Below, one piece after another: positions 47,269 through 56,616 of a DNA stretch of 63,737 nt (its first letter is position 1; each line of letters opens with the position of its first letter). This DNA is from Rhodothermales bacterium (GTDB lineage Bacteria; Bacteroidota; Rhodothermia; Rhodothermales; UBA10348), in assembly GCA_024711125.1 (NCBI GenBank), contig JANJTM010000053.1, forward strand, positions 1-63,737. Direction: 5' to 3'. The notes below the pieces were generated by a model, which was given only the letters and a program-made list of their open reading frames with translations, had not been told where the DNA came from and ran no database searches. The position numbers and the translations under genes are program-made.

Positions 47269-48348
<1,080 letters not shown>

Positions 48349-49210: not shown

Positions 49211-50773
49211 TCACCGCACCCGCTGCAGGTCCAGGTCCTGGAAGTCGTAGCTGAAATCGGTGGCGTCGCTCACCCACTCCATCCGGATGGAGCGCGCCGA
49301 ACCGTCCGGTCCCACGGTGAAAATGGCGTAGACGTCGGCGCGCAGCTCGCGGTCGTCCCACTTCGCGATGAAGGTGTCGCCATTCCACGGGACGAGATCC
49401 CCGACGAGCGACGGAGTGTGCTCGAAGCGGACGCGCAGCCCGGCTTCTCCGCGTTCGACGAACACCTGCCCGTACCACGCGTCGCGGTACGTTCCGGCAT
49501 AGGCCTCCAAACCGCGGGGCTCGACTGCGCCCTCAGGCCGATCCGGCCACGCGAAGGGATCGACGCCGGGCGCCGCCCCGTTCCGCCGCATCGCGGTGTC
49601 GTAGGCCGTGATCCAGTCGTACGGCTCCCCTCCGATGAAGTGGTCCATGACCCGGTAGGCGATCGCGTCGAAGGCCGCGCCCGACTCCTGGTTCGTCAGC
49701 ACTGCCACGCCGGCCTTCAGCTCGGGCAGCATCATGACGCGGGACACGAATCCCGGCAGACCTCCGGTGTGCGTCACGACGAATTGCCCGCGATAGTCCC
49801 GGACGTTGAGACCGAGCGCGTACCCGTTGAAATGGGCCTTCTGGCGCCGGAACTCGGGCCGGGGATTCCCGATCGGCATCGGGGTGACGAGCGTCCAGAG
49901 TTGACGCGTCGTGGCCGGCGAGTACAACCGGCGATCCGGAGCGACGCGTCCCGAGTCCATCTGCACGATGATCCACTTCGCCATGTCGGCGGCGCTGGCG
50001 TTGATTCCGCCCGCCGGATTCGTGTTGTCGCTCGCGAACGCGGCCACGCGGCGCACGACCCCGTCGATGGCGGCGTGGGGTTGCGCGGCGTTACCGCCGT
50101 GCCCGGCTTCGCTGTGGCGCGTATTGGAATCGGCCATCCCGACGACGTCGAGGATGCGGGTCTGCACGAAGTCCTCCCACGACAGGCCGCTAACGGTTTC
50201 TATCACCTCGCCGGCCACGGTGTAGAGCACGTTGTCGTAGGCATACGCGCTGCGGAAACCGGTGGCCGGCTTGATGTACTGGAGCCGCTCGGCGATCTGC
50301 CGGCGATCCAGGTTGGACGGCGGCCACCAGAGGAGATCACCCGCGCCGAGGCCCAGGCCCGAGCGGTGTACCAACAGGTCCCGCACCGTCAGTTCCCGCG
50401 TAACGAACGGGTCGTACATGCGGAACCACGGCAGGATCTCGATGACCCGCTGGTCCCAGCCGATCTTCCCTTCCTCGACGAGCAGGCCGAGCGCGGTCGC
50501 CGTGAAGACCTTCGTGTTGGAGGCGATGCCGAAGAGCGTGTGCCCGTCCACGGGCTCGCCGGTGTCCAGGTCGCGTACGCCGTAGCCCTTCGCCAGCACC
50601 ACGCGGCCGTCCTTCACGATCGCGACGCCGATGCCCGGAACGTCGAACGTCTCGAGAACGCGCGTGACGTAGGCGTCGAAATCGGGCGGCGGGCCGGCCT
50701 GGCGGGCATTCGCGGGCGACGCGGCGAGCAGCGCGGTGAGCGCGACACAGCGGAAGAATCGGGCGACGGACAT
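49211..50773 (-). CDS. Exported serine hydrolase, beta-lactamase (S12) family
   Basis: A 520-residue protein with signal peptide ending ANARQ. Class C-like penicillin-binding fold: SxxK as Ser85-Asn-Thr-Lys88 in FGIASNTKVF, a Tyr-x-Asn as YDN in SAYAYDNVLY, and HTGG in VVTHTGGLPGFVSR. The last 110 residues are a DUF3471-type lipocalin-like domain (GLEAYAGTYRDAWYGQVFVERGEAGLRVRFE). Such proteins are peptidases or esterases rather than true beta-lactamases. It follows the T9SS cargo gene by 12 bases and is probably co-transcribed. Confidence 0.88.
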   Translation of the reverse strand: MSVARFFRCVALTALLAASPANARQAGPPPDFDAYVTRVLETFDVPGIGVAIVKDGRVVLAKGYGVRDLDTGEPVDGHTLFGIASNTKVFTATALGLLVEEGKIGWDQRVIEILPWFRMYDPFVTRELTVRDLLVHRSGLGLGAGDLLWWPPSNLDRRQIAERLQYIKPATGFRSAYAYDNVLYTVAGEVIETVSGLSWEDFVQTRILDVVGMADSNTRHSEAGHGGNAAQPHAAIDGVVRRVAAFASDNTNPAGGINASAADMAKWIIVQMDSGRVAPDRRLYSPATTRQLWTLVTPMPIGNPRPEFRRQKAHFNGYALGLNVRDYRGQFVVTHTGGLPGFVSRVMMLPELKAGVAVLTNQESGAAFDAIAYRVMDHFIGGEPYDWITAYDTAMRRNGAAPGVDPFAWPDRPEGAVEPRGLEAYAGTYRDAWYGQVFVERGEAGLRVRFEHTPSLVGDLVPWNGDTFIAKWDDRELRADVYAIFTVGPDGSARSIRMEWVSDATDFSYDFQDLDLQRVR

Positions 50774-50785
50774 ACCGGAACGGAA

Positions 50786-53700
50786 TCAGCGGACCAGGAC
50801 GACCGGCCGGGACACGGAACGTCCGCCGGCCGTGAGACGGTAAACGTACGCACCGGACGGAAGCGAATCCGCCTCGAGCCGCACGGAGTGCCACCCCGGC
50901 GTCCGCACCCCGTCGACGAGCGTGCGCACCCGGCGACCCGACACGTCGAAGAGCTCGAGACGCACCGACCCGGCGGCGGGCAGACCGAAACGGAGGACCG
51001 TGGTCGGATTGAACGGATTCGGATACGCCCCGAGCAGCGTGACCTCCCGCGGAACCCCGTCCTCCTCCACACCGGTAAGGGCGCCCCGCTCGAAACGGAC
51101 GGCGACGACCGCCGAAACCACGTCGGCCTGCCCGTCGCGGGTGACGACCCGGTGGTAGGCATCGATCGCCGTTCCGACCGGCGTTCCCGGCGAGAAGAGC
51201 AGGCCGACGAGTTCGGCGTACGCGACGTCGACCGACGTTGCCGACCCGGCATCGATCGATGCCAACGGCGCGGAGAAAACCGGGTCGAGCGCCAGTTCCC
51301 ACCGATACTCGAGGGCATCCCCGTCCGGATCCACGCCCGGGGTCCACGAGGCGCGCAGCGTCGTCGCGGGATCTCCGGTCAGCAGGACCGTGCCGCCCCC
51401 CGCCGGTTCCGTCGGCTCTGCCGCCGTGGGCACCCGGTTGGCCTCGAGGTGCGTGGTGGATTCGGGAACGCCGTCGCGGTCGGCGTCCGTCTCGACGGTA
51501 AGCGACGAGCCCGCGGTCCAGTCGGGTTTGAGCGCCACAGCGGCACCGTCCGGCACCGGGACCCCCTCGACGCGCATCTCGTGCCCTTCGTCGTCGAGAA
51601 GCGCGACCGAAAACGAGGCGACGGGCCCCGTCGCCGTCACGACGACAGCGCCCCGGCCCGGGTCGGCCGTCATCTCCAGGTCTCCGTCCACGACGGCATC
51701 GGCCCTCAGCAGACTGCCCAGCGACGGCCAGATCGCCTCCACCGCAAGGGAATCGGACCCGTCTCCGGGCACGGACACGGAGAAGGCCCCGCCGTCCACG
51801 TTCACACGCAGCCCGGCGTTCGCAGCGCCTCTTCCCGACGCCCGGAACCACGTCGAGCCCCCGAGAACCGACGTCGACGCGCCTCCGCCGACCTCGATGC
51901 TCGTCGGTCCCTCCGGCACGAGGTAGCTCACGGGCGGCGCCGGTCCTCCGACGAAATTCGGAAGGATCTCGGCGCCGGCGAGCGTGGACGCGGCCGTCGA
52001 ACCGTCCCAGGTCACCGATCCTCCCACTCCGGAGATCGCGACGGTCTCGGCGTCGCCGGCCAGGATTTCGAGCATGCCCGCACCGGAGCGCTTCGGCGCG
52101 ATCTCCTGCGGAATCCGGGCGTACCAGGCATAGTCCGGGATCGGATCCAGCAGGAAGAGCCCGATCGTTCCGCCCCACACCGGGCTGAACCCGTCGTAGC
52201 TCCAGGTGTCGTTCGCGGTGTCGACGAGCACGAACGCATCGTCGTCGCCCGGCTTGTTCGGGTCGTAGATCAGGATCCGGTACCGACCGCCGCCCGCCGG
52301 GTCCGGTTCGACCCGGTACGGAACCACGACGTGCCCCCCCGCATCGCCCGGCGCCCGCATGGCGAGCGTGCGGTCGTCCGACGGATCGTCGCTCTCCAGC
52401 ATCGAACGGACCGCGTCGAGCGTGACCGTCGCGGTCTTGTCGCCCTTCGCGCGGATGTAGACCCGCACCCCCTCGCTGTACTGGTAGTTCTGCACCGCGT
52501 TGATGGCGGCGCGCAGATTCGTCGCGACGCGGGGGTCGGCACCCGATGCGTAGAGACTCGGGTAGTACCCGTAGCGGGGCGATGCACCGGCCGGATCGGC
52601 GAAGATCTGCATCGCCGACACGGCCATTCCGCCGCACGAGCCCTTCCAGGCACCGAGCCCGTCCCGGAGCGCCGCCCAGAAGCCCGCGAACCGCATCGAA
52701 TAATGACCGATGGACCGGTCCGCGTACGCCGTCTCCGGGCCGAACGCATCGACGAACGAGTTCCAGTCGGGAAAGAAATCCGGGCGGCCGGACGACGGCT
52801 CGCGGGTGAATGCCTCCGGAAACAGCAGCCCGGTGTAGGGGTCAATGCCTCCGTAATCGAATGCGCTCCACCAGGATGCCGGAAACAGGAACTGCTCGGT
52901 GTTGCTGAACCCCCACCCGTGCGCGCTCGGGCGGAAGGCCTCCAGCTCGCCCGCATCGCCGACCCGGGTGAGCTGGTAACCCTTCACGCTGAAGGGCTCG
53001 CCCCACGCGATCGGGGTACCGCCGGTGACGCGCAGCCCCACCCGGCACCGCGCACACACGAAGGCCTGGGACGGAATCGTAACCTCGAACCAACCCTCGC
53101 GGCGTTCGACGTTCGTGGCGACGAGCTCGACCGGGGCCGTGTCGGAGGCGCGGAACAACAGGTCGATCGTTCGCGAATTGCCGCCGTACCACGTGACGGT
53201 CTGGTTCACCCCGGGCTGCCACCGCGTGCCCGCCGTAGGGGCCATCGGCGTCGGCGGCTTCGGAGTCAGCACGGCCATCCAGGCTTCGGTTCGGCCGGCC
53301 GGGTTGGTCCCGTGGCCCACGATGACCGATCCGTCGCCGGAAATCGCCGCCGCCGCCGTGAGGGTCCAACCGGTGAGGTCGAACCCGTAATCGGTCTCGA
53401 GCACCGTCTTGAGGGCGCGCATGCCGCCCGCCTGGGTCCAGTGGAACGCCTCCGAGCCGGCCGCGCCCGCCCCGCTGCCGACGACGATCGTTCCGTCGCC
53501 CGAAACCGACTGCGCGATGCTGAAGAACGCTCCCCCGGGCAGATCGCCGAGGCCGGTCATCGTTCCGCCCGTCCAGCGGAACGCCTCGGTGCCCGACGCC
53601 GACGTGCTCGAACCCACCACCACCGAGCCGTCGAACGACGCGGCGAGCGCGGTGCTGGACGTGGCGCCCCCGGCCAGGTCCCCGAGCAGCGTCGGCGTTC

Positions 53701-54307
53701 CGCCGGACCAGGCGAACGCCAACGACGGCTCGCCCGTCGCCGTGCGCACCCCGACGACCGTCGCGCCGTCCCCCGAGATGCCGTAGCCGAACCCGGTGAA
53801 CCCCAGGGCCGTGAAGCCGCCGTCGACCGAAACGAACGGAAACGTGATGTTCTCGGCGAATCCGGTCCCCGCGCCGGAGCGTCCGTCCCACGACAGTCCG
53901 TACGCGCGTGCGGTCGCCTGGATGGGGCCGCCACCGAGGTCGACGACCGGGACCGAGAGCAGACCGTTCGTTCCCCCCTCGCGCGTGAACGCCTCGAACG
54001 GGCCCGAACCCACGCGCCGGTTTCCGAACAGCACCAGGCCCTCGGTGGAGGCCGCGCGCAATTCGCCCTCGATGCCGACCTGGTGGCCTCCCGGCGACGT
54101 CCAGCGGACGGCCTGGCGCACGCCGCCCCCGTCGACCGAGTAGCCGACGACCTCGAGCCCGTCGGGCGAGACCCCGAGCGCCCTCGTTTCGACGGTTCCG
54201 GCCGGGAATCCGAGCGGCTCGAAGAAGGCCTGCGCATGAACGGCGCACGGCAGGACAAGGCCGCACAGTGCGAGAAGCACCGGGGCGGCCGGGTTTCGAC
54301 GAATCAT
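50786..54307 (-). CDS. Large secreted protein with HAF repeats, papain-like segment and T9SS sorting domain
   Basis: A 1173-residue exported protein. Residues 1-26 are a signal peptide. Residues 40-345 are HAF-type extracellular repeats (LGVSPDGLEVVGYS, GISGDGATVVGVRT, SVSGDGTIVVGSG, AISGDGSVIVGHG). Residues 355-440 look like a beta-sandwich. Residues 460-740 contain GSCGGMAVSAM (Cys558), GGHVVVPYRV (His659) and ILIYDPNKPGDD (Asp682/Asn684), a Cys-His-Asn/Asp order seen in papain-like and transglutaminase-like folds. Beta-rich domains follow. The last 85 residues (YPNPFNPTTVLRFGLP, LFDVSGRRVRTL, YVYRLTAGG) are a type IX secretion sorting domain. Protease activity is inference only. Confidence 0.8.
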   Translation of the reverse strand: MIRRNPAAPVLLALCGLVLPCAVHAQAFFEPLGFPAGTVETRALGVSPDGLEVVGYSVDGGGVRQAVRWTSPGGHQVGIEGELRAASTEGLVLFGNRRVGSGPFEAFTREGGTNGLLSVPVVDLGGGPIQATARAYGLSWDGRSGAGTGFAENITFPFVSVDGGFTALGFTGFGYGISGDGATVVGVRTATGEPSLAFAWSGGTPTLLGDLAGGATSSTALAASFDGSVVVGSSTSASGTEAFRWTGGTMTGLGDLPGGAFFSIAQSVSGDGTIVVGSGAGAAGSEAFHWTQAGGMRALKTVLETDYGFDLTGWTLTAAAAISGDGSVIVGHGTNPAGRTEAWMAVLTPKPPTPMAPTAGTRWQPGVNQTVTWYGGNSRTIDLLFRASDTAPVELVATNVERREGWFEVTIPSQAFVCARCRVGLRVTGGTPIAWGEPFSVKGYQLTRVGDAGELEAFRPSAHGWGFSNTEQFLFPASWWSAFDYGGIDPYTGLLFPEAFTREPSSGRPDFFPDWNSFVDAFGPETAYADRSIGHYSMRFAGFWAALRDGLGAWKGSCGGMAVSAMQIFADPAGASPRYGYYPSLYASGADPRVATNLRAAINAVQNYQYSEGVRVYIRAKGDKTATVTLDAVRSMLESDDPSDDRTLAMRAPGDAGGHVVVPYRVEPDPAGGGRYRILIYDPNKPGDDDAFVLVDTANDTWSYDGFSPVWGGTIGLFLLDPIPDYAWYARIPQEIAPKRSGAGMLEILAGDAETVAISGVGGSVTWDGSTAASTLAGAEILPNFVGGPAPPVSYLVPEGPTSIEVGGGASTSVLGGSTWFRASGRGAANAGLRVNVDGGAFSVSVPGDGSDSLAVEAIWPSLGSLLRADAVVDGDLEMTADPGRGAVVVTATGPVASFSVALLDDEGHEMRVEGVPVPDGAAVALKPDWTAGSSLTVETDADRDGVPESTTHLEANRVPTAAEPTEPAGGGTVLLTGDPATTLRASWTPGVDPDGDALEYRWELALDPVFSAPLASIDAGSATSVDVAYAELVGLLFSPGTPVGTAIDAYHRVVTRDGQADVVSAVVAVRFERGALTGVEEDGVPREVTLLGAYPNPFNPTTVLRFGLPAAGSVRLELFDVSGRRVRTLVDGVRTPGWHSVRLEADSLPSGAYVYRLTAGGRSVSRPVVLVR

Positions 54308-54466
54308 GGCGGGTAGCTTCCGTGAATCGTTGACGCGCGGTGCCGCGCGCCCGGTACGGACGGGATGGTACGAAAGCCATCCGATTCGCGACACACCGGC
54401 CTGGTCGTCGCCGCGAAACCGGCGCGGGCAGTGCCGTATACTTGCGTTCCCAACGCATTCCGACCG

Positions 54467-56338
54467 ATGGAAGACCCGACGACGCCCTCCCCCGAACCGA
54501 CCCCGGACACCGCGACCACGGCCGCGCCCGCGCCCTCCCCCGAACCCGCGCCGGCCGACACGCCGTCGCTCGACGTCGAGAGCCCGGCCGCGCCGAGCCT
54601 GCTCGAGCAGTACACCGCGCACTACCCGGAGTGGGGCAAGGAATTCGCGCGCAAGTACCTGACGAAGACGCTCAACCAGTTCATCCTGTACGGGAGCGTG
54701 CGGGACCTCGTGCGCACGGTCGACGACGCCGGCAGACCCGACTACGTCTCGCTGCGCGATTTTCTCGTGCGCGACCTTTTCTCGGCGCGGGACATCATCG
54801 TCTTCTACGACCGTTCGTCGGGCATCCACTTTTCCGATCGCGAATCACAGATCGATTTCAACCGCGCGCTGTCGGGATACGACACGATTTTCGGAACCGA
54901 TTTCGCGAAGAAGCTGCCGCGCGATCCCGTGCGCGTGTTCTCGGTGCTCGAGAACTACTTCCGCCTGCGCCTCGCCGACGGCAAGCGCATCGCGTGCGTG
55001 ATGGACTACGCCGAGACCATCGTGCCGATGGCCGAGGCGTCGAGCTACTCGGCCGACGACCGCAACGCGATCGTCTTCCTGCAGAAGTGGGCGCACGATC
55101 CGCTCTTCCTCGAGAAGGATTTCACCGTGCTGCTGGTCGCCGAGAACCTGACCGAGCTGAACCAGCAGATCGTGCAGAGCGCCTACACGGCCGAGATCAA
55201 CATCCCGCTGCCGGCCGAGCCCGCCCGAGCCGACTTCGTGGCGTGGTACCTCGAGGGCAAGGAGGAGGCGTTCGGACTCCAGAGCCAGGTGAGCCCGCGT
55301 GCGCTGTCGGCCAATACCGCCGGCCTGGGGTTCATCCAGCTGCGCACGATCCTCGCCGACGTGCTCGAAAACCGCACCCGGCTCACGTTCGAGGCGCTCA
55401 GCGACCTCAAGAAGGAGTTCATCGAGGCCGAAGCCCACGGCATGCTCGAATTCGTCGAGACGGACTACACGCTCGACATGGTGGCCGGCCACAAGGAGGC
55501 CAAGACGCACCTGCGGCATGCCGCCATCGCGCTCAAGAACGGCCGCCCGGACGTCATGCCGATGGGCTACCTCGTTTCGGGGCCGGTCGGAACCGGCAAG
55601 ACCTTCGCCATCACGTGCTTCGCCGGTGAGATCGGGATCCCGATGGTGAAGCTCAAGAATTTCCGCTCGCAGTGGCAGGGGCGGACCGAAGCCAACCTCG
55701 AGCGCATCCTCGCGCTGCTGGAAGCGATGACGCCGGTGGCCGTGATGATCGACGAGGCCGATGCCGCGCTCGGCGACCGCGATTCGTCGGGGGATTCGGG
55801 CGTCTCGAAACGCGTGTTCGGACAGATCGCGAGCTTCATGTCGAACCCGAAGCACCGCGGACGCATCGTGTTCTTCCTGCTCACGGCGCGGCCGGATTAC
55901 ATGCCCGTCGACCTCAAGCGGCAGGGCCGGGCCGAGGAGCACATCGCGCTCTTCTACCCCTCCACGCGCGAGGAGCGGGAGGAACTGCTGCGCGTCATGC
56001 TGAAGCGCACGAAGGTCTCCATCTCGATGGACGACATTCCCGAGGCGCTGCTCAACGGCGAGCGTACGTTTTCCGGGGCCGACATGGAGGCGCTCATGAC
56101 GCGGGCCAAGTTCCGCGCCGCCGCCTCGTCCGACGGAACCGGGCAGGTGACGCGGGAGATCCTCGAGGACGTGGTCGACGATTTCATGCCGCCCACCTAT
56201 CCGCTCGAGGTCGAACTGCAGACGCTCGCGGCCGTGCTGGAATGCACGTCCCGCGTGCTCCTGCCCGAGAAATACCGCGAGATGGACCGCGAGACGATCG
56301 TGCGCAGGGTGGACGAACTGAAGAAGCTCGTCAAATGA
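54467..56338 (+). CDS. AAA-family ATPase with degenerate N-terminal ATPase-like module
   Basis: A 623-residue protein. Residues 1-45 are a Pro/Thr/Ala-rich linker. Residues 45-270 look like a degenerate ATPase module: a Walker-B-like strand ACVMDYAET at 176-184 and VLLVAENLTE, but no P-loop. Residues 330-560 are a canonical AAA domain: Walker A GPVGTGKT at 372-379, Walker B VAVMIDEAD at 424-432, sensor-1 VFFLLTARPDY, arginine-finger region LKRQGRAEEHIALFYP, and a C-terminal lid with FSGADMEALMTRAKF. Its stop overlaps the start of a EutN/CcmL shell-vertex gene (ATGA). The partner suggests a role in assembling or remodelling a protein shell, but no substrate is known. Confidence 0.85.
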   Translation: MEDPTTPSPEPTPDTATTAAPAPSPEPAPADTPSLDVESPAAPSLLEQYTAHYPEWGKEFARKYLTKTLNQFILYGSVRDLVRTVDDAGRPDYVSLRDFLVRDLFSARDIIVFYDRSSGIHFSDRESQIDFNRALSGYDTIFGTDFAKKLPRDPVRVFSVLENYFRLRLADGKRIACVMDYAETIVPMAEASSYSADDRNAIVFLQKWAHDPLFLEKDFTVLLVAENLTELNQQIVQSAYTAEINIPLPAEPARADFVAWYLEGKEEAFGLQSQVSPRALSANTAGLGFIQLRTILADVLENRTRLTFEALSDLKKEFIEAEAHGMLEFVETDYTLDMVAGHKEAKTHLRHAAIALKNGRPDVMPMGYLVSGPVGTGKTFAITCFAGEIGIPMVKLKNFRSQWQGRTEANLERILALLEAMTPVAVMIDEADAALGDRDSSGDSGVSKRVFGQIASFMSNPKHRGRIVFFLLTARPDYMPVDLKRQGRAEEHIALFYPSTREEREELLRVMLKRTKVSISMDDIPEALLNGERTFSGADMEALMTRAKFRAAASSDGTGQVTREILEDVVDDFMPPTYPLEVELQTLAAVLECTSRVLLPEKYREMDRETIVRRVDELKKLVK

Positions 56339-56616
56339 ACCTCTGCCGCGTCACCGGCACCGCCGTCGCCCCCGTCAAGGCCGACGCCTTCCGCGAGCAG
56401 AAGCTGCTGGTGGTGCGTGCGCTGCGGCTCGACGGTTCGCTCGCCGACGGGATCGACCAGCTCGCGCTCGACCCGGGATTCGGGGCGGGTCCGGGCGATA
56501 CCGTGCTCGTCACGAAGGAAGGCGGTGCCGTCAAGCAGCTGCTCGGACGGGACGACGCGCCGGCGAACGTCGTGATCGTGGGTATCGTGGACGACTGGAA
56601 CGTGGCGGAAGGCTGA
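56335..56616 (+). CDS. EutN/CcmL-family microcompartment vertex protein (BMC-P)
   Basis: A 93-residue protein with the size and pattern of pentameric bacterial-microcompartment vertex proteins. It begins MNLCRVTGTAVAPVKADAFREQ (family: start strand, GTVVAT, then KLLVV), continues KLLVVRALRLDG, has DPGFGAGPGDTVLVTKEGGAVKQLLG (the conserved GAGxGDxVLV), and ends APANVVIVGIVDDW (the AIVGIVD strand). Its ATG overlaps the ATPase stop by 4 bases, so the products are made together. No BMC-H/BMC-T hexamer gene or encapsulated enzyme is present in the window. Confidence 0.85.
   Translation: MNLCRVTGTAVAPVKADAFREQKLLVVRALRLDGSLADGIDQLALDPGFGAGPGDTVLVTKEGGAVKQLLGRDDAPANVVIVGIVDDWNVAEG

Follow-up and report, generated by a model that had tools for sequence, protein, structure and literature searches.

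A Rhodothermales vertex protein gene overlapping a Cdc48-like AAA ATPase gene encodes the third BMC-P of a probable dispersed microcompartment with a predicted role in deoxyribose-phosphate metabolism

The window (the whole 63,737-nt stretch of DNA analysed here) encodes a EutN/CcmL-type vertex protein, one of three BMC-P paralogues in its genome and probably part of a dispersed microcompartment (BMC). We regard it as likely that this compartment is of the FRAG type, and that the Cdc48-like AAA ATPase encoded directly upstream has a separate role, the vertex gene occupying the adjoining slot. According to this proposal, the shell would be formed by two BMC-H proteins (contig C70), its vertices being closed by pentamers of three BMC-P proteins, two of them encoded on contig C78 and one in the window. 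The AAA protein would be a conserved two-module ATPase with a cellular role of its own, probably the unfolding or remodelling of proteins via the ring pore, and the vertex gene would sit in a chromosomal slot beside it, just as the other shell and cargo genes sit beside other genes. New here is the observation that an acylating aldehyde dehydrogenase (AldDH) with a C-terminal tail and a DeoC with an N-terminal extension accompany the scattered shell in the same 18 genomes.

The features of the window are as follows:

54467-56338, plus strand: AAA ATPase gene, 623 aa, Cdc48-like, with a degenerate N-terminal AAA module and an intact C-terminal module
55580-55603, plus strand: Walker A of the C-terminal module, GPVGTGKT, residues 372-379
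55736-55762, plus strand: Walker B of the C-terminal module, VAVMIDEAD, residues 424-432 (AVMIDE, residues 425-430)
56335-56338, plus strand: ATGA, in which the vertex start codon and the AAA stop codon overlap (4 bases shared by the two genes)
56335-56616, plus strand: third BMC-P (EutN/CcmL vertex protein), 93 aa, PF03319

The 93-residue protein matches EutN_CcmL (PF03319) with 62.6 bits (E 5.2e-17, cut-off 25), and its best phmmer match is CcmL (4n8x, 6.1e-9). The model of the monomer is too weak to carry an argument (pLDDT 62.5): its top seven Foldseek matches are BMC vertex proteins or a BMC particle, but with a best E of 2.6e-3 and a TM of about 0.32. By sequence, the family assignment and the 4-base overlap of the original prediction are both confirmed.

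For the AAA gene the start is ambiguous, since an in-frame ATG is also present at 54365. The protein belongs to Pfam PF00004 (E 1.5e-20, residues 369-494), and the pattern G-x4-GK[ST] occurs in it only once, at residues 372-379. Its predicted model (mean pLDDT 79.7) has its best PDB matches in Rix7 and p97/Cdc48, AAA ATPases with two rings, the alignments spanning about 600 columns with TM-scores of about 0.35 to 0.55. The N-terminal half is therefore most likely an AAA module that has degenerated; the two-module architecture with intact C-terminal Walker A and B motifs, as read earlier from the sequence, agrees with both the motifs and the model. In an alignment of 18 AAA proteins of the class (mean column identity 70%), most residues of the Walker A and B motifs, Trp 403 (FRSQWQG) and a TARPD..P.DLKRQGR stretch are invariant. 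We take W403 to lie at the position of the pore loops in Cdc48-type rings, and the latter stretch is presumably the second region of homology. NCBIfam matches at E 0.001 comprised CDC48, FtsH, PAN, CdvC and IteA models, all far under their cut-offs, with no CbbQ or MoxR model among them. Cdc48/p97 proper has two active modules and an N domain; the window protein, with its single Walker A and 77 bits against the Cdc48 model TIGR01243 (cut-off 803), falls outside that group.

No PF00936 (BMC-H) match is present within the 63,737 nt of the window, as had been noted before. The genome to which the window belongs (3.79 Mb, 81 contigs, 99.3% complete) encodes two BMC-H and three BMC-P proteins according to a whole-genome search, and its shell and enzyme genes are spread over contigs C24 (third BMC-P, BMC-P3), C61, C70, C71 and C78:

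C70, 53790-54314: tandem pair of BMC-H genes (PF00936)
C78, 56642-57153: tandem pair of BMC-P genes (PF03319), directly behind deoB
C61, 57674-58999, minus strand: AldDH (profile match, TIGR02518)
C71, 46627-47505, minus strand: DeoC, 292 aa

The vertex protein is therefore "lone", as it had been called, within the window, but not in the genome, which holds two BMC-H and two further BMC-P genes. Of the two explanations offered originally, a dispersed locus with hexamers elsewhere is the one borne out by the two BMC-H genes on C70. In genome G030, assembled as one contig, the AldDH gene is found at 1.39 Mb, the BMC-P pair at 3.55, DeoC at 4.02, BMC-P3 at 4.27 and BMC-H at 4.33 Mb; the dispersal is therefore not an artefact of contig breaks. 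The least distance seen between BMC-H and BMC-P genes in the class is about 54 kb (G296).

Profile searches of 117 genomes of the class Rhodothermia identified PF00936 in 18, always in two copies, and each of these same 18 carries three copies of PF03319. Neither BMC-H nor BMC-P was found in 98 genomes, and the remaining one (G291) has a single partial BMC-P and no BMC-H. From this gene content we infer that a shell assembles in the 18 shell-bearing genomes. The other original explanation, a shell-independent use in which the pentamer adapts or caps the AAA ring and is unrelated to compartments, appeals to the gene overlap and to the lack of BMC-H in the window. It is hardly credible now: an intact PF03319 protein without BMC-H occurs in none of the 117 class genomes, and the AAA family and this vertex type are each abundant without the other, the AAA in 94 of the 99 class genomes without a full shell set and the vertex type without the AAA in 18 of 19 genomes searched outside the class.

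The shell genes also appear to come and go together. On a 65-row tree of AAA proteins, which covers 65 of the 112 class genomes that carry the AAA gene, five changes of shell state are seen, and four of them are forced by starred branches. Each affects three separate loci together, while the AAA gene remains; most simply these would be losses. The independent changes are few: they give four pairs, with AldDH concordant in almost all pairings and p 0.125 in a sign test.

The AAA gene itself is present in 112 of the 117 class genomes, among them every shell-bearing one. A search of the phylum at E 1e-30 detected it in 62 of 247 genomes, each of which belongs to the class. It is a class-wide gene, probably no dedicated shell component and probably one with an ordinary housekeeping function. 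BMC-P3 lies downstream of it on the same strand in 17 of the 18 shell-bearing genomes; only in G030 are the two far apart. A scan of named genomes carrying the third BMC-P, which overlaps in part with the class set, gave 57 loci, of which 36 have the AAA upstream of BMC-P3 on the same strand. These 36 include all 15 loci named Rhodothermales, Rhodothermia, Rhodothermaceae, Rubricoccaceae or Rubrivirga. A lack of conserved linkage, which had been named at the outset as a ground for refutation, is not observed: the two genes are genuinely linked, the linkage is conserved, and in the loci surveyed it does not extend beyond the class. In the other 21 loci no AAA of the window's family was found in the flank, which is short in some of them. 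They derive from Ignavibacteria, Chlorobi, Acidobacteriota, Planctomycetota, one Roseovarius, three Bacteroidetes/Bacteroidia and one unnamed source, and have a GlmM gene near the vertex gene in 15 and a DprA gene in 13 cases (each family checked on one member). For 19 of these 21 the genome was searched as well. BMC-H was found in 18 of the 19, and the AAA family was absent at E 1e-20 from 18, of which 17 have BMC-H. The sole exception is a planctomycete, in which the two matches and the BMC-H genes are located on different contigs. Adjacency is hence not something that the two genes mutually require.

The distance between AAA and BMC-P3 varies from -4 to 1126 bp over 43 loci (L092 appears twice in this list, and L081 and L096 represent the same contig). 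The pair is separated in 31 of the 43 by an opposite-strand gene that resembles Phd/YefM-type antitoxins (PF02604, checked on one member); the same kind of gene is also found 3' of the AAA gene in 11 of 46 genomes without BMC. The window lacks this separator, and its overlap is the only one among the 43 loci. Translational coupling of the two genes, which had been deduced from the overlap, can therefore not be upheld as a property of the pair; in the window genome, with the separator missing, the overlap may couple AAA and vertex expression. Gaps of at most 15 bp occur in six of the 43 loci, the window included, and none of the six has the separator. Such short gaps may reflect plain deletion or selection for joint expression.

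A functional bond between the two proteins has to be weighed against this background. The AAA ring might have a second job in Rhodothermales, binding the third vertex pentamer and removing or inserting it with ATP, so that shells are remodelled or recycled, with linkage, and in the window genome the overlap, keeping the two proteins in proportion. The linkage in 17 of the 18 shell-bearing class genomes and in all 15 of the named Rhodothermia-type loci argues for such a role, as do its retention where outer neighbours have changed, the six gaps of at most 15 bp and the invariant W403 at the pore-loop position of Cdc48-type rings. The CsoCbbQ ATPase is a component of the alpha-carboxysome shell according to its description (PMC4633670), so ATPases can join shells. 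We nonetheless consider the second job improbable: the AAA persists in 94 of 99 genomes without a full shell set, was not found in 18 of the 19 genomes searched outside the class that share this vertex type (BMC-H being present in 17 of these 18), is separated from the vertex gene by an opposite-strand gene in 31 of 43 loci, and has no N-terminal motif dividing the 18 proteins of shell-bearing genomes from 46 of BMC-less ones. For the same lack of a dividing motif we rejected the AAA protein as encapsulated cargo; a "PSLL" stretch before the AAA domain is found in several members of the window's own family and not in other shell-bearing genomes. Quite improbable, in our estimate, is a reading in which Rhodothermales have co-opted a general Cdc48-like ring to remodel vertices at the expense of ATP: it would recognise BMC-P3 and extract or load its pentamers in a dispersed deoxyribose-phosphate metabolosome, which would make shell opening active and regulated. 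Such a role would predict that the two genes stay linked, as they do in 17 of 18 genomes, and that they are tightly joined at separator-free loci.

The other loci of the dispersed set provide a control, as the BMC-P3-AAA locus is one of four such chromosomal slots. A YbbR-like gene adjoins the BMC-H pair or lies within about 2 kb of it in all 18 shell-bearing genomes (Pfam assigned all 11 members that were scanned to YbbR with E-values of 1 or better, the best at 7.1e-11, the window genome's member only at 0.14). deoB is located at most 7 kb from the BMC-P pair in 16 of the 18 (in G235 there are partial matches at a contig end), and a diadenylate cyclase gene is near this pair in 14 (family checked on one member). 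The AldDH gene is found in 15 of the 18 near genes that we presume to be efp-, accB/accC- or guaA-like. If linkage to a conserved gene meant function, these other slots would need the same explanation. The AAA-vertex pair is thus largely explained by a conserved neighbourhood plus local joining. Its persistence at loci with changed outer neighbours (e.g. L086 and L092) is not readily explained by gene-order drift and counts against an account based on neighbourhood only; the short gaps, possibly selected for co-expression, weigh in the same direction.

With regard to the cargo, TIGR02518 (EutE-type acetaldehyde dehydrogenase) scores 512-552 bits in exactly the 18 shell-bearing genomes, 465 and 452 bits in two genomes without BMC, and at most 55 bits in all other matches listed; the curated cut-off of 620 bits is reached by no AldDH. 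For the protein of the window genome it is the best NCBIfam model (517 bits). All 18 AldDHs of shell-bearing genomes possess a variable linker followed by a conserved short C-terminal tail, and the two from BMC-less genomes end before it. Likewise, all 18 DeoCs of shell-bearing genomes, that of the window genome included, share one type of N-terminal extension, in which a short charged segment is followed by a linker and then by a "GA.R.G ... AC.LA..(L/I)AR" stretch. This extension is intact in none of the 20 BMC-less DeoCs examined (out of 99 BMC-less genomes). The DeoC of G291, the genome with the partial BMC-P, retains a remnant of it; the DeoC frame of G292 lacks the aldolase start and was not scorable. 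At least five of the 20 (G211, G253, G256, G270 and G299) bear unrelated N-terminal extensions.

Judged by their sequences, the AldDH tail and the DeoC extension are encapsulation-peptide-like and may be putative targeting tags; tags of this kind steer cargo into many BMCs according to the 2021 catalogue (PMC8217296). Since none of 14 sample peptides from tails and extensions exceeded its shuffles in hydrophobic moment at the 5% level, we do not claim amphipathicity. For SPU compartments, the proposed pathway as published leads from deoxyribose-5-phosphate via acetaldehyde to acetyl-CoA (PMC4207490, PMC8217296). From the restriction of the tail and of the intact extension to shell-bearing genomes among the homologues examined, together with this pathway, we infer that AldDH and DeoC would be encapsulated with deoxyribose-5-phosphate as substrate, and predict a dispersed deoxyribose-phosphate metabolosome.

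The enzymes as such are more widespread. DeoC exceeds its cut-off in 112 and DeoB in 84 of the 117 class genomes, and neither can be regarded as a BMC-only enzyme; for DeoC the extension alone is particular to shell-bearing genomes. Two of the latter (G030 and G274) have no deoB-type match above 26 bits. That DeoC and DeoB are not limited to shell-bearing genomes counts against the preferred reading, as do AldDH scores below the curated cut-off, the unexceptional hydrophobic moments, the small number of independent shell changes and the absence of PduL. The wide distribution of DeoC and DeoB would fit a real dispersed shell whose cargo belongs to one or more other aldehyde pathways, DeoC serving general nucleoside salvage, and the catalogue indeed assigns no signature enzyme to FRAG BMCs (PMC8217296). 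We view this as unlikely, given the specific DeoC extension in 18 of 18 shell-bearing genomes and its intact form in none of the 20 others examined, the proximity of deoB to the BMC-P pair (no more than 7 kb in 16 of 18), and an AldDH that scores best with acetaldehyde dehydrogenase models, acetaldehyde being the product of DeoC.

Among described systems, FRAG BMCs come closest to the preferred reading, a scattered shell with a third BMC-P beside an independent ATPase gene. In the catalogue their shell genes are spread over as many as six sites, most of them far from any known enzyme, and include a BMC-P triplet in which two members come from two fixed clades, one from each, and the third from a different clade; they are described as having no obvious signature enzyme, with Ignavibacteriae and related phyla among their hosts (PMC8217296). 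The set described here resembles them in its distant shell loci, with BMC-H and BMC-P not clustered (on separate contigs in the window genome), in the number of its BMC-P proteins, which is three, and in an AldDH encoded somewhere in the genome. It differs in that the catalogue's account of FRAG BMCs assigns them no function (PMC8217296; the string "Rhodotherm" is absent from its main text), whereas two terminal extensions lead us to propose a cargo here.

SPU compartments are similar in chemistry: a DeoC-type aldolase yields acetaldehyde and glyceraldehyde-3-phosphate, and an AldDH possibly forms acetyl-CoA, as described in both surveys (PMC8217296, PMC4207490). As reported there, however, SPU loci are clusters sharing RpiB and, in the 2014 set, mostly PduL (PMC4207490, PMC8217296). 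Here the genes occupy five contigs and PduL (PF06130) was found in none of the 117 class genomes, which places them outside the clustered SPU type; the scattered set would work like SPU, yet is not an SPU locus. A close precedent is provided by the HO BMC of Haliangium ochraceum, which likewise has a BMC-P triplet and for which, according to the catalogue, a pfam01791 aldolase is encoded at another site in some genomes, in part with an N-terminal extension resembling an EP (PMC8217296). HO has a main shell locus in the same source (PMC8217296), whereas BMC-H and BMC-P lie apart in our case.

As a BMC-associated AAA+ ATPase, the CsoCbbQ of alpha-carboxysomes is the obvious comparison; it was termed the first BMC-associated ATPase activity, and is described as a shell component with one AAA+ domain, a CbbQ-specific C-terminal domain and an interaction with CbbO (PMC4633670). 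The window AAA, by contrast, is two-module and Cdc48-like and occurs mostly in genomes without a shell. Other BMC-linked ATPases exist, for example ParA-type positioning proteins. Among the open-access literature matches listed (titles and abstract openings), there was no report of the AAA-vertex pair or of a function for a FRAG BMC.

The main interest of these findings lies in the scattered compartment with a proposed function rather than in the AAA-vertex pair. A convincing-looking operon, such as an AAA gene overlapping a vertex gene, can be the local joining of genes with separate histories. FRAG BMCs were called "enigmatic" in the 2021 catalogue (PMC8217296), and the present set gives one compartment of this probable type a testable candidate job, the catabolism of DNA sugar. 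That the genes appear and disappear together at separate places suggests that the genes of an organelle can persist as a unit without adjacency.

In many relatives, an aldolase gene of the DeoC/LacD family (PF01791, an assignment resting on one member) precedes the gene of the Cdc48-like AAA ATPase. In the window, the end of this aldolase lies about 6 kb upstream of the ATPase gene, and minus-strand genes intervene:

Window 48001-48345 and 49211-54300: aldolase and intervening minus-strand genes

On the other side of the ATPase gene, 31 of 43 loci carry a Phd/YefM-like antitoxin gene on the opposite strand, which separates it from the gene of the third vertex protein, BMC-P3. The antitoxin-like gene is strongly conserved, often with a Lys-rich tail, and is also found behind the ATPase gene in 11/46 class genomes lacking the full shell set (BMC-less). 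An example is:

L070:7463-7744, minus strand: Phd/YefM-like antitoxin gene

On the single contig JAJCYR010000091.1, the block of ATPase and BMC-P3 genes occurs twice (L081 and L096), about 55 kb apart and in opposite orientation; the two copies have similar scores and a similar gap, and the duplication is possibly an assembly artefact. Among the 19 out-of-class genomes searched, the only relatives of the ATPase were two in the planctomycete G319, a strong match of 697 bits, which contains a single in-frame TAA, and a weaker match of 250 bits; contamination may be their source:

G319 C184:63926-65662 and C53:28934-30253: relatives of the AAA ATPase

The genome G291 (loci L151 and L261), of 92% completeness, has a single partial BMC-P, and its DeoC bears a degenerate remnant of the N-terminal extension; matches to neither BMC-H nor the ATPase were found in this genome. 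Perhaps its compartment is in decay, or else there is an assembly gap.

In 16 of the 18 class genomes with two BMC-H and three BMC-P genes (BMC+), deoB (phosphopentomutase) lies just upstream of the BMC-P pair or within 7 kb of it. In the window's genome its position is:

G000:C78:55450-56559: deoB

Elsewhere, YbbR/CdaR-like, diadenylate cyclase and GlmM genes make up the c-di-AMP operon. A YbbR/CdaR-like gene lies beside the BMC-H pair in all 18 BMC+ class genomes, and of the 18 out-of-class genomes that have BMC-H, 7 also show one within the short flanks covered:

L006:8713-10594 (G000 C70): YbbR/CdaR-like gene and BMC-H pair, window's genome
L178, L179, L183-L187: out-of-class loci with a YbbR/CdaR-like gene near BMC-H

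A diadenylate cyclase gene is near the BMC-P pair in 14/18 BMC+ genomes, and at 15 of the 21 out-of-class loci a GlmM gene lies close to BMC-P3. Pieces of the dispersed shell lie next to genes of the c-di-AMP operon type.
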